Shown in pieces: positions 17,978-22,385 of a stretch of DNA of 46,047 bases. Made by a program: the position numbers and the translations under genes. The DNA comes from Mucilaginibacter sp. (GTDB lineage: Bacteria > Bacteroidota > Bacteroidia > Sphingobacteriales > Sphingobacteriaceae), in assembly GCA_028287805.1 (NCBI GenBank), contig JAQBOY010000321.1, positions 1-46,047 of the forward strand, in the 5' to 3' direction. The notes below the pieces were generated by a model, which saw nothing but the letters and a program-made list of their open reading frames with translations, made no database searches and had not been told where the DNA came from. Positions within the stretch are counted from its first letter, which is position 1. Each line of letters starts with the position of its first letter.

Positions 17978-18220
17978 ATGCTGCTAAATGATAAACGTGA
18001 GTTCAGAAATGTTAAGTTATTGAAGAAGATCGAAGAACTGACCCTGTATTTAATTGAAAAAGATTCCCGCTTATTCAAGGAAAAAACCATTGATCTCGTT
18101 CCTAAAGTCAGCACCAAAGCCAAAGAGGAAGCGAAACAAGCTGGTATGTCTTTTGGTAGGGATATGGCAGACTTGTTATTTTTACTTTGTAATCATTCAA
18201 TATCGGCAAGCTTAAGTTAA
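17978..18220 (+). CDS. Small hypothetical protein, coiled-coil N-terminus
   Basis: 80 aa; 'NDKREFRNVKLLKKIEELTLYLIEKD' resembles coiled-coil tails of larger Bacteroidota proteins; second half unrecognised. Confidence 0.35.
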   Translation: MLLNDKREFRNVKLLKKIEELTLYLIEKDSRLFKEKTIDLVPKVSTKAKEEAKQAGMSFGRDMADLLFLLCNHSISASLS

Positions 18221-18879: not shown

Positions 18880-18906
18880 TTAAATAATTAAAAATATAGG
18901 TAATTA

Positions 18907-18932
18907 AAGGTGTTGTGTGTATATAACACCTT
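18907..18932. promoter_or_regulatory. Inverted repeat upstream of rrf2
   Basis: AAGGTGTT-N10-AACACCTT, perfect 8-bp arms, 28 bp upstream of the Rrf2 start codon. Confidence 0.5.
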
Positions 18933-19076
18933 GGTATTATGGGTTCGCAAACAACAATACATCATGATACCATTAATAGATATGAGCATTTTGCTGTGTT
19001 TATAGCCAACTCTTTGAAGAGCTAAAAGAGTATTATTTACAGTTGTTTTCATATTTTCAGACAAACATAAATAATA

Positions 19077-19095
19077 ATCTATTAAATCAATAGAT
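19077..19095. promoter_or_regulatory. Inverted repeat abutting the leader promoter -33 box (candidate operator)
   Basis: ATCTATT-AAATC-AATAGAT, perfect 7-bp arms, 1 bp upstream of TTG at 19097. Confidence 0.5.
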
Positions 19096-19096
19096 A

Positions 19097-19126
19097 TTGT
19101 AGATAATAAAAATTAATTTATATTTG
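19097..19126 (+). promoter_or_regulatory. Bacteroidota-type promoter (TTG-N19-TATATTTG)
   Basis: TTG 19097-19099, exactly 19 nt, then TATATTTG 19119-19126, fitting the Bacteroidetes -33/-7 consensus TTG/TAnnTTTG. Confidence 0.75.
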
Positions 19127-19144
19127 CCTCGCTAAATCAAAAAA

Positions 19145-19237
19145 ATGAAGACTTTTTATCATCTGTTAAACCGAACATTAAGATTCTACGATTCCCTTCC
19201 AATACCGCATAGGTGTTGCATATGTTGTTGTTGCTGA
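19145..19237 (+). CDS. Poly-cysteine leader peptide (30 aa), candidate cysteine-responsive attenuator ORF
   Basis: ATG..TGA translates MKTFYHLLNRTLRFYDSLPIPHRCCICCCC*; 6 of the last 7 codons are Cys; 19 bp downstream of a consensus -7 box. Confidence 0.75.
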   Translation: MKTFYHLLNRTLRFYDSLPIPHRCCICCCC

Positions 19238-19398
19238 TTAACGCAACGCCCCATACATAATTCTTGTTGTGTTATAGGTCTCGGGGACTATTGCGGCATA
19301 ATACTTCCAATAAATTCAAATTACTTCACTCATCTTTATCTATTAAAATGAATAAATAAGAAAAAATATAATCAGCAAGGAAGCCTTGCCGGTTATAA

Positions 19399-19542
19399 AT
19401 GAACGACCAGTTTCGTAACGGCAATTACGCCAGAAGCATAAATCTGAATGCCAGAAAGGTAATTGTGCCGACACGCAAGCCGGGCGGGCAAAAAGCACCA
19501 GATACAACTGCATCCCCCGTTAAAAGTGAGCGGGAGGAGTGA
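19399..19542 (+). CDS. Small ORF (47 aa), hypothetical
   Basis: MNDQFRNGNYARSINLNARKVIVPTRKPGGQKAPDTTASPVKSEREE*; between the leader ORF and the M14 gene; coding status uncertain. Confidence 0.3.
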   Translation: MNDQFRNGNYARSINLNARKVIVPTRKPGGQKAPDTTASPVKSEREE

Positions 19543-19589: not shown

Positions 19590-22385
19590 ATGAAAAAAAT
19601 TTACATTGCCATTTTCTGTTCGATGTTCCTGTCGGGCAGCTTACTGGCGCAAACTATTCCATCCCCAAAAGAGTTTTTTGGCTTCAACATCGGGGACGAT
19701 TATCAACTGGCTAATTTTACACAAACAGAAGCCTATTTTAAAAAGCTTACAGCTTCTCCACGTACAAAATATGTAGACATCGGGCTTACCGAAGAAGGCC
19801 GGCATCAATTTATGCTGGTTATTTCTTCACCCGAGAATATAAAGAAATTAGAACAATATCGAACCATCTCAAAAAAAATGGCCCATGCCGAGGGCCTTAC
19901 CGACGAAGAGGCTCACCAGCTTTCATTAGACGGTAAGGTTGTTGTTTGGATAGATGGCGGTTTACATGCTACCGAAGTATTGGGTATTCATCAGTTAATA
20001 GAAACCTCATACCAACTGGTTACCCGGAATGATGACGAAACTAAAAAAATATTAGATAAAGATATTATTTTAATGGTACATGCTAATCCGGACGGCCAGG
20101 AGTTGATCTCTAACTGGTATATGAAGGAAAAAGACCCCCAGAAACGTAATATGAATGTGCCGCGCTTGTGGGAAAAATATGTTGGCCATGATAATAATCG
20201 CGATTCTTATATGATGAATATGAAAGAGTCGCAAAATATTACCCATCAACAATTTTTAGACTGGATACCACAAATAGTTTATAATCATCATCAGTCAGGC
20301 CCTGCCGGTTCCGTTGTAGCGGGTCCGCCTTTCCGCGATCCATTTAACTATTTATACGATCCGTTACTAATGACCAGTATTGATGAAGTAGGATCAGCGA
20401 TGAACAGCAGGCTTAACGCCGAAGGAAAACCAGGTTATACCCAACGCTCCGGAACAGAGTTCTCTACATGGTTTAACGGTGGGGTGCGCACAGCAACTTA
20501 TTTCCATAATACGGTAGGTTTGTTAACTGAAATGATAGGCAGCCCTGCACCTTCCACTATTCCGGTAGTGCCTGAGCGTTTAATACCAAATAGCGCAACG
20601 CCATTCCCGGTTCTGCCGCAAACCTGGCATTTCAGGCAATCCGTAGAGTATTCATTGTCGCTTAACTACGCGGTATTAAATTATGCTGCGCGCCATAGTG
20701 ATGAGTTATTATACAATATGTATAGGATGGGTAAAAACTCTATCGAACGAGGAAGTAAAGATTACTGGACACTTTCACCCAAGCGCTCTGATGCGATAGT
20801 TGAAGCGGCCAAAGCAGGACGACCAGCTGTAGACAGCACTGCAGGCGGTGGGCGGGGAGGACGCGGTGGTGCCGCAGGCGCGGTTACTATTGGCGGTGCG
20901 CGTAATGGAAATATAGCGCTTAAATATTATGATGAGGTATTAAAAAATCCCGAACTACGTGATCCCCGGGGATATATCATTAGCGTAGATCAGCCTGATT
21001 TTGCAACGGCGGTAAAGTTCGTCAATCTTTGTATCAGATCAGGACTTATTGTACAAAAAGCGACTGCGGCATTTACCGTAAATGGTAAAAATTATCCCGC
21101 CGGCTCTTACATCCTGAAAACTAACCAGGCATTTCGCCCGGAAGTGTTGGACAGATTTGAACCAGAAAATCATCCCAATGATTTCTTGTACCCGGGCGGC
21201 CCCCCAATAAAGCCGTACGATATGACCGGCTGGACAGTAGCTTACCAAATGGGTATTAAATTTGATCGCATACTGGATGACTTTAACGGTCCTTTCCAAC
21301 GTATTTCTTATGGCGAATTACAGCCAATGCCGCTTGCTTCTGCACCGGCAACTGCTAAAAACGGTTATTTCATTAGCCCAACTGCCAACAATTCATTTAT
21401 AGCGGTTAACGATCTTTTACAGGCTGGTGTGGGCGTATATCGTTTAACCGAAGCTTCTGCCACCCAACCTGCAGGTTCTTTTTATGTTGCTTACTCCGAA
21501 AAAGCAAAAGCGGTATTGGATAAAGCGGCAAAAGAACTGTACGTAAAAGCGGTAACAGCACCAAAAAAGCCAAAAAACATTGAACCAATAAATACTGCCC
21601 GAATAGCGCTTTGGGATCAATATGGAGGTTCTATGCCTTCGGGCTGGACCCGCTGGATGATGGAGCAGTACCATTTCCCATTTAAAGTTGTTTATCCGCA
21701 GGAGTTTGATGCAGGTGATTTAAAAAGCAAGTTTGATGTGATTATACTTGTTGGAGGAGCTGTGCCGCCTCCGGGAAGAGACGGTGGTAATTTTGGTGGC
21801 GGCGGCCGTGGAGGTCGTAGTGCCGGTGAGATCCCTGATGAGTATAAAACCTGGACCGGGCGACTTACCGTAGAGAAAACAGTACCACTGCTTAAAACAT
21901 TTTTAGAAGCTGGCGGAACTATTGTTACAGTAGGCACCAGCGCGAATTTAGCTTATGCCCTTAATTTGCCGGTGCATAACGCGCTGGTTGATGTAGTAGG
22001 GGGCAAAGAAGTGCCTTTTTCAGGTGATAAATTTTATATTCCGGGTACCATATTGCGTGCTTCGGTTGATACCAGGCAGCCGGCCAATTATGGTATGGAA
22101 AATGAAGTGGACGTGATGTTTGACAATAGCCCGGTATTTAAACTGGATGCAGATGCGGCCAGTAAAGGCGTTAAACCATTAATGTGGTTTAGTACCGATA
22201 AGCCATTACGAAGCGGTTGGGCCTGGGGACAACAATATTTGAAAGATGATGTAGCGGCATTTTCGGCGCAAGTAGGTGCGGGGACGCTTTACTCATTCGG
22301 ACCGGAAATAACTTTCCGCGCGCAGCCTCATGGCACATTCAAATTATTGTTTAATGAGTTATATAAAAAAGGCAGCCAGAAATAG
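19590..22385 (+). CDS. M14 family zinc carboxypeptidase (secreted)
   Basis: Signal peptide; 'VVWIDGGLHATEVLG' (HxxE), 'DIILMVHANPDGQELI', 'QIVYNHHQSGP', 'LLTEMIGSP'; two Gly/Arg-rich insertions. Confidence 0.87.
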   Translation: MKKIYIAIFCSMFLSGSLLAQTIPSPKEFFGFNIGDDYQLANFTQTEAYFKKLTASPRTKYVDIGLTEEGRHQFMLVISSPENIKKLEQYRTISKKMAHAEGLTDEEAHQLSLDGKVVVWIDGGLHATEVLGIHQLIETSYQLVTRNDDETKKILDKDIILMVHANPDGQELISNWYMKEKDPQKRNMNVPRLWEKYVGHDNNRDSYMMNMKESQNITHQQFLDWIPQIVYNHHQSGPAGSVVAGPPFRDPFNYLYDPLLMTSIDEVGSAMNSRLNAEGKPGYTQRSGTEFSTWFNGGVRTATYFHNTVGLLTEMIGSPAPSTIPVVPERLIPNSATPFPVLPQTWHFRQSVEYSLSLNYAVLNYAARHSDELLYNMYRMGKNSIERGSKDYWTLSPKRSDAIVEAAKAGRPAVDSTAGGGRGGRGGAAGAVTIGGARNGNIALKYYDEVLKNPELRDPRGYIISVDQPDFATAVKFVNLCIRSGLIVQKATAAFTVNGKNYPAGSYILKTNQAFRPEVLDRFEPENHPNDFLYPGGPPIKPYDMTGWTVAYQMGIKFDRILDDFNGPFQRISYGELQPMPLASAPATAKNGYFISPTANNSFIAVNDLLQAGVGVYRLTEASATQPAGSFYVAYSEKAKAVLDKAAKELYVKAVTAPKKPKNIEPINTARIALWDQYGGSMPSGWTRWMMEQYHFPFKVVYPQEFDAGDLKSKFDVIILVGGAVPPPGRDGGNFGGGGRGGRSAGEIPDEYKTWTGRLTVEKTVPLLKTFLEAGGTIVTVGTSANLAYALNLPVHNALVDVVGGKEVPFSGDKFYIPGTILRASVDTRQPANYGMENEVDVMFDNSPVFKLDADAASKGVKPLMWFSTDKPLRSGWAWGQQYLKDDVAAFSAQVGAGTLYSFGPEITFRAQPHGTFKLLFNELYKKGSQK

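Follow-up and report, generated by a model that had tools for sequence, protein, structure and literature searches.

Cysteine-run leader peptides in Mucilaginibacter: a conserved family with probable Rrf2-type control

Introduction

Polycysteine leader peptides, or uORFs, of the cys operons of Actinobacteria are reportedly among the subjects of work by Canestrari in 2020. For actinobacterial cys operons, polycysteine leader peptides without a conserved intrinsic terminator have been described, and Rho was suggested as a possibility (Seliverstov 2005, PMC1262725). In Rhodobacterales, the uORFC-8-2 motif upstream of cysS contains a uORF with tandem Cys codons, for which ribosome-mediated attenuation has been proposed (PMC8632094). 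In Flavobacterium psychrophilum, leader-peptide attenuation has been inferred before amino-acid biosynthesis operons; the main text of that study does not name cysteine for these leaders and mentions neither polycysteine leaders nor Rrf2 (PMC9723704). A search of the open-licence literature, with subscription papers and preprints outside its scope, returned no report of polycysteine leaders in Bacteroidota.

The Cys leaders of Mucilaginibacter are a variant of the polycysteine type already known from Actinobacteria. Both are short 5' ORFs with a Cys run at the stop codon, located before sulfur or cysteine genes (in Mucilaginibacter, at family loci other than the window) and without a conserved intrinsic terminator. 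However, they belong to different phyla, and for mycobacteria the description is of leaderless ORFs, whereas the AUG of the leader studied here lies 18 nt past the -7 box. Moreover, an Rrf2-type operator, a conserved RNA element (R1), a start-stop mini-ORF and SusC/SusD-sulfatase targets set the Mucilaginibacter leaders apart. The uORFC-8-2 motif resembles them in its tandem Cys codons but differs in having two such codons inside a structured stem, an intrinsic terminator, cysS as target and a host among Alphaproteobacteria. F. psychrophilum shares with Mucilaginibacter the phylum and the putative use of leader peptides.

Results and Discussion

Two divergent Cys leaders around one operator

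The window, i.e. the whole stretch of DNA analysed (46,047 nucleotides), comes from a fragmented assembly of a Mucilaginibacter sp. (GCA_028287805.1, contig JAQBOY010000321.1). The original prediction had pointed to a 30-codon ORF (leader A) with 6 Cys among its final 7 codons, to a TTG-N19-TATATTTG promoter with a 7-bp inverted repeat at its -33 box, and to a divergent Rrf2 gene. All these features were recovered (Table 1). The repeat consists of ATCTATT (19077-19083) and AATAGAT (19089-19095), and one base separates it from the TTG. The -7 box is invariant in an alignment of promoters from 21 loci, and its distance from the AUG suggests a short 5' UTR. That first reading had missed a second Cys leader on the minus strand before rrf2 (leader B), as well as the mini-ORF and hairpin downstream of leader A (19348-19389).

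Table 1. Features of the leader locus in the window
Feature	Coordinates	Strand	Support
Rrf2-family regulator with conserved C-x2-C-x5-C segment	18421-18879	-	PF02082, 2.1e-31; TIGR00738 above cut-off
Leader B, MKTTVNNTLLALQRVGYKHSKMLISINGIMMYCC fused to LRTHNTKVLYTHNTFNYLYF and stop	18888-19052	-	Stop 8 nt before rrf2 start
-7 box TATGTTTG in the divergent promoter facing rrf2	19062-19069	-	Conserved with own-genome copy L259
Dyad operator ATCTATTAAATCAATAGATATTGTAGAT, common to both divergent promoters	19077-19104	.	Top two PWM scores in the window
Leader A promoter: TTG (19097-19099), N19, -7 box TATATTTG (19119-19126)	19097-19126	+	
Leader A, 30-codon ORF MKTFYHLLNRTLRFYDSLPIPHRCCICCCC and stop	19145-19237	+	Family alignment: three Cys columns invariant, two more at least 90%
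Start-stop mini-ORF ATG AAT AAA TAA (MNK and stop), ATGAATAAATAA	19348-19359	+	Family counterpart in 78/78 loci
R1 hairpin 1 core, GCAAGG-AAG-CCTTGC	19375-19389	+	Shortened relative to the 10-11 bp stem of the family
Degenerate remnant of second R1 hairpin, GACCAG...CGTAACGGCAATTACG	19399-19431	+	Alignment; 3' part of R1 lost
Zinc carboxypeptidase of the M14 family, nearest large gene downstream of leader A	19590-22385	+	Pfam

Leader B is read from the same operator as leader A. It is damaged: the third Cys and the stop are lost and the frame is fused. Its homologue on contig C95 of the same genome is intact and ends in MMYCCC before the stop; the similarity between the two breaks off immediately past the second Cys codon. 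Contigs C95 (leader-R1) and C126 (R1-SusC) carry these elements at contig ends and may represent one locus split by the assembly. An 80-aa ORF before the Rrf2 region (17978-18220, plus strand) has no Pfam or NCBIfam match.

The genes next to the window leaders are those of the M14 carboxypeptidase and of Rrf2; sulfur or cysteine targets are seen for the leader family elsewhere. The M14 gene was considered as a target conserved with the leader and rejected, its paralogues elsewhere having no leader. By its layout, the window copy looks like the common leader unit in rearranged form. It may be rearranged or decaying, since M14 is not a cysteine gene and R1 is truncated. It could even be a relic, a leader and a truncated R1 left behind by the loss or rearrangement of a SusC/SusD-type operon and regulating nothing relevant to cysteine at present. 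The shortened hairpin and missing 3' part of R1, the lack of a match by the R1 covariance model to this copy, the M14 paralogues without leader and the fused leader B are what such a remnant would look like. On the other hand, the operator and promoter are intact, as are leader A with its six Cys codons, the mini-ORF and the core of the hairpin, and no other TAnnTTTG box was found between leader A and the M14 gene; we regard a relic as possible but somewhat doubtful.

A leader family defined by its Cys tail

A pattern combining promoter, start and Cys run, TATTTGN{12,24}ATGN{39,69}TGYTGYNNNTGYTGY, was applied to 151 congeners and returned a family of the form TATATTTGCGnCGTAAAACAAACGCAATGAAAGCTTTTTTACAT..., i.e. 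MK[AT]FLH, a variable middle and CCxCCC(C) before the stop. At dozens of Mucilaginibacter loci, many of them related by descent and so not independent events, the operator and TATATTTG precede an ORF of 24-37 codons ending in CCC, CCCC or CCxCCCC. Conservation is confined to the start and the Cys tail, with a variable middle; the number of Cys ranges from 2 to 7, and the tail nearly always abuts the stop. Leader A, judged by alignment, belongs to a large, conserved and apparently undescribed leader-peptide family in one Bacteroidota class. BLAST with the 30-aa peptide alone was discarded as a family search, yielding mostly noise and one real match (L002), as were the HRCCxCC and CCxCCC-stop patterns without promoter, which were dominated by coding repeats.

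R1 is a conserved RNA element that follows the leader by ~130 nt and lies between it and the gene. It comprises hairpin 1 (ACCGGCAAGG-AAG-CCTTGCCGGT), a further hairpin whose loop is conserved around GTAACGCCAATCAC, and then TTTTACTAAC...ATTAACATAAAAC. Hairpin 1 has strong energy support in RNAalifold but, because covariation is small, the case for R1 rests mostly on sequence conservation; Rfam holds no relevant family that matches the leader or R1. A covariance model built without leader sequence detected ~100 copies in 66 of the 151 congeners. Independently, a GTDB scan with the hairpin pattern CCGGCAAGGNAGCCTYGCCGG gave 69 stretches, with R1-like sequence downstream in 61. All but one of the R1-like stretches belong to Mucilaginibacter, Pedobacter or MAGs labelled Bacteroidetes/Sphingobacteriaceae, the exception being a Prevotella MAG without leader.

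Merging both sets gave 86 distinct loci collected blind to the leader, which are not independent of one another phylogenetically. A promoter-linked ORF with at least two Cys in its last eight codons is present in 78 of the 86 (at least three in 76, at least four in 56), compared with 7 of 63 control promoter-linked ORFs (at least three in 4/63). Several of the misses trace to a variant promoter (L238, L258) or to misplaced coordinates (L233, L252). Cys accounts for 55% of the last eight codons in the leader-blind ORFs and for 1.5% of their body, at a median length of 30 codons. The Cys codons are TGT (257) and TGC (110), and this use of both indicates conservation at the level of the amino acid and not of the DNA. 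The Cys run on which the original prediction had staked its sequence-level test is thus conserved, and nothing that it had listed as telling against it at this level was found.

These data bear on three other explanations of the ORF. Many Cys in a small peptide might indicate that leader A is made for its own sake, as a metal-binding or RiPP-like molecule that is either secreted or cytosolic; this is very improbable, considering that only the start and the tail are kept, with a variable number of Cys placed nearly always at the stop, and that the neighbourhood holds sulfur genes downstream and no maturation genes. We likewise give hardly any credence to regulation of the operons by the Rrf2 operator alone with incidental Cys codons, which the conservation of the operator over the -33 box would allow; the excess of Cys tails at leader-blind loci relative to control ORFs and the variation of synonymous codons speak against it. 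Finally, leader A is short and unannotated, but a chance ORF without function is extremely improbable, as one set of promoter, 5' UTR, tail and downstream element recurs at scores of loci and in several families.

The mini-ORF, located between leader and R1, consists of an ATG with a stop within five codons (M, MK, MC or MKL before the stop, among others), the stop lying 10-25 nt before R1. It occurs in all 78 loci and in 69/69 after removal of sequences with >70% identity; as controls, the preceding 60 nt gave 8/56 and shuffles gave 31/78 on average.

The operator and the Rrf2 regulator

The sequence TCTATAGATTTnGTAGATT is common to 55 non-redundant leader promoters, over the -33 region, and a PWM built from these promoters scored the window operator at 16.4 (+) and 15.1 (-), the two best matches in the window. 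The CTAT...GTAG operator covers the -33 box at dozens of Mucilaginibacter loci. As a site finder, a scan of the own genome was rejected, with 25 two-mismatch matches, only a few of them real, against 31 for a reversed-pattern control.

Like CymR, the cysteine regulator of Firmicutes, the window regulator has the Rrf2 fold and a link to cysteine or sulfur genes. However, it scores 76.6 bits with the CymR equivalog (NCBIfam NF047409), far under the curated cut-off of 195, and has a conserved C-x2-C-x5-C segment; with the NCBIfam IscR equivalog it scores 66 bits, below the curated cut-off of 207.55. A relative with ~60% identity exists in 57 of 61 congeners, usually adjoining a nitrite/sulfite reductase gene, and the window protein is, from its sequence, a paralogue of this genus-wide regulator. 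Closer copies have as neighbour either a luciferase-like monooxygenase or a methionine-type ABC transporter. At many of the sulfite reductase loci, an operator-like site precedes the reductase gene (20.3 at L193, 15.6 at L210, 14.4 at L190, 14.1 at L207); some others score only 9-12, close to 10.9, which is the 99.99% background quantile. R1 itself lies before an Rrf2 gene in two congeners (L291, L294). Altogether, control of the leader family by an Rrf2-type regulator is probable.

Genes downstream of the leaders

At leader-R1 loci, the next genes encode SusC (at +345 to +370), SusD, a fatty acid (FA)-hydroxylase-like protein and often an arylsulfatase, SusC and SusD being named by sequence character and gene order rather than by Pfam. 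At some loci, the leader lies directly before a sulfatase gene, followed by that of a formylglycine-generating enzyme (FGE). A second operon type comprises SusC, SusD, an S51-peptidase-like protein, membrane proteins, a YeiH-like protein (PF03601), cytochrome c and a sulfite-dehydrogenase-type Mo oxidoreductase. One region with a luciferase-like (sulfonate-type) monooxygenase has outward-facing Cys leaders on both flanks (L150; G023:C16:58000-77000), and a SAM riboswitch lies ~1.3 kb upstream of one leader-SusC operon (L114, 171-277, minus strand).

Most loci with redoxin-like genes have Cys leaders, and at some of them two leaders stand in tandem. Such tandems were noted at L440, L442, L421, L425, L165 and L167, and the second leader often ends in a motif of the type Y-x-V/A-I/V-Y-G-L-x-R-C-C. 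In the own genome, contig C130 (L393/L413) carries the leader MTKINQINISFNASGMCCGCCPMPGRC and stop, then an intrinsic terminator and a gene for a 214-aa redoxin-like (AhpC/TSA-like) protein. The terminator, GGGCCTTTC-ACTATA-GAAAGGCCCTTTTT (i.e. GAGGGCCTTTC-ACTATA-GAAAGGCCCTT) with a T-run, makes C130 an own-genome candidate for a classical attenuator.

If the proposed function is true, the leader would mark a regulon by sequence alone, and sulfatase, sulfonate, sulfite-oxidation and cysteine-synthesis operons could be assigned to sulfur limitation at every place where it is present. In that case, sulfur acquisition would be the role of some SusC/SusD systems, which are commonly taken for carbohydrate importers.

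A proposed two-layer control model

Leader conservation, the operator, the targets and the association with Rrf2 are read from the sequences; from leader, operator and targets together, and by inference from established attenuation biology, cysteine sensing through ribosome stalling is the best reading. We consider it quite probable that the leader is the ribosome-sensor part of a two-layer unit, combining Cys-codon attenuation with an Rrf2-type operator. What we infer is that the leader is translated, that the ribosome stalls at low cysteine, that Rrf2 binds, and how the stall is read out. In the first layer, a sulfur regulator of the Rrf2 type would bind the CTAT...GTAG dyad that covers the -33 box, setting transcription initiation. 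In the second, a ribosome on the short leader would reach the Cys codons that adjoin the stop; a shortage of Cys-tRNA(Cys) would make it stall there and the downstream operon would be expressed, whereas with plentiful cysteine it would terminate, leading to attenuation within the ~130 nt between leader and hairpin 1. The unit would drive organosulfur scavenging or cysteine synthesis at typical loci, so these bacteria probably turn on such genes when cysteine is short. In the window, a single operator would feed two divergent Cys leaders, one before the M14 gene and the other, damaged and fused, before rrf2.

The original prediction of a cysteine-sensing unit with both Rrf2 control and attenuation holds in part. 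For the family, the sequences lend good support to a leader that would respond to cysteine and would probably be controlled by Rrf2: the Cys run is kept while the rest of the peptide varies, leaders precede sulfur or cysteine genes in several families, and Rrf2 relatives and the operator class are found beside sulfite reductase and sulfur genes. Less favourable are the M14 neighbour and the truncated R1 of the window, and the absence of a visible classical competing-hairpin attenuator at most loci.

As for the readout, an intrinsic terminator was found at C130 only and was absent from nearly all loci examined; the R1 loci have no U-tract after hairpin 1. A conserved antiterminator involving the Cys codons was not found, pairing partners differing between loci, and pairing of these codons within 70 nt after the stop was 0.25 versus 0.23 for shuffled intervals. 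The leader-to-R1 interval contains 20% C and 13% G, a mild C-richness that is weakly suggestive of Rho. We favour intrinsic termination for C130 and, for the R1 loci, attenuation that depends on Rho or is coupled to reinitiation. We also put forward, tentatively and with some doubt, a new attenuator class in which the stalled leader ribosome would be read out through the start-stop mini-ORF, which a fixed hairpin follows at 10-25 nt (e.g. by reinitiation or Rho access), without competing hairpins and together with the Rrf2 operator, to coordinate a Bacteroidia-wide cysteine/organosulfur regulon including SusC/SusD import of sulfated substrates. The leader family offers a genetic test case for attenuation without an obvious terminator, a question raised for actinobacterial cys leaders since 2005.

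Leaders in other families

Outside the class, no convincing leader was seen among the matches listed for a phylum-wide CCCCC pattern (five loci opened). Within it, another family carries MCCCCCCC-stop and Cys runs of up to seven before cysH-metY-metX in five genomes, the operon products being PAPS reductase, a Cys/Met PLP enzyme and a MetX-type alpha/beta-hydrolase. At L473 and L475-L478, leaders with six to seven Cys precede the PAPS reductase-Cys/Met synthesis operon, and several of these loci have a GC-rich hairpin (GTCGGGATT...AATCCCGAC) without U-tract after the leader. Further leaders in other families lie before TonB receptors, one of them adjoining cysN/cysD/cysH-type genes, and before a dioxygenase-like gene. 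In a third family (L487-L489), the leader ends in CCCCCC(C) before the gene of this 268-aa dioxygenase-like protein, and CTACTAATTCnATAGA, located between the TTTG and the ATG, resembles the operator dyad.
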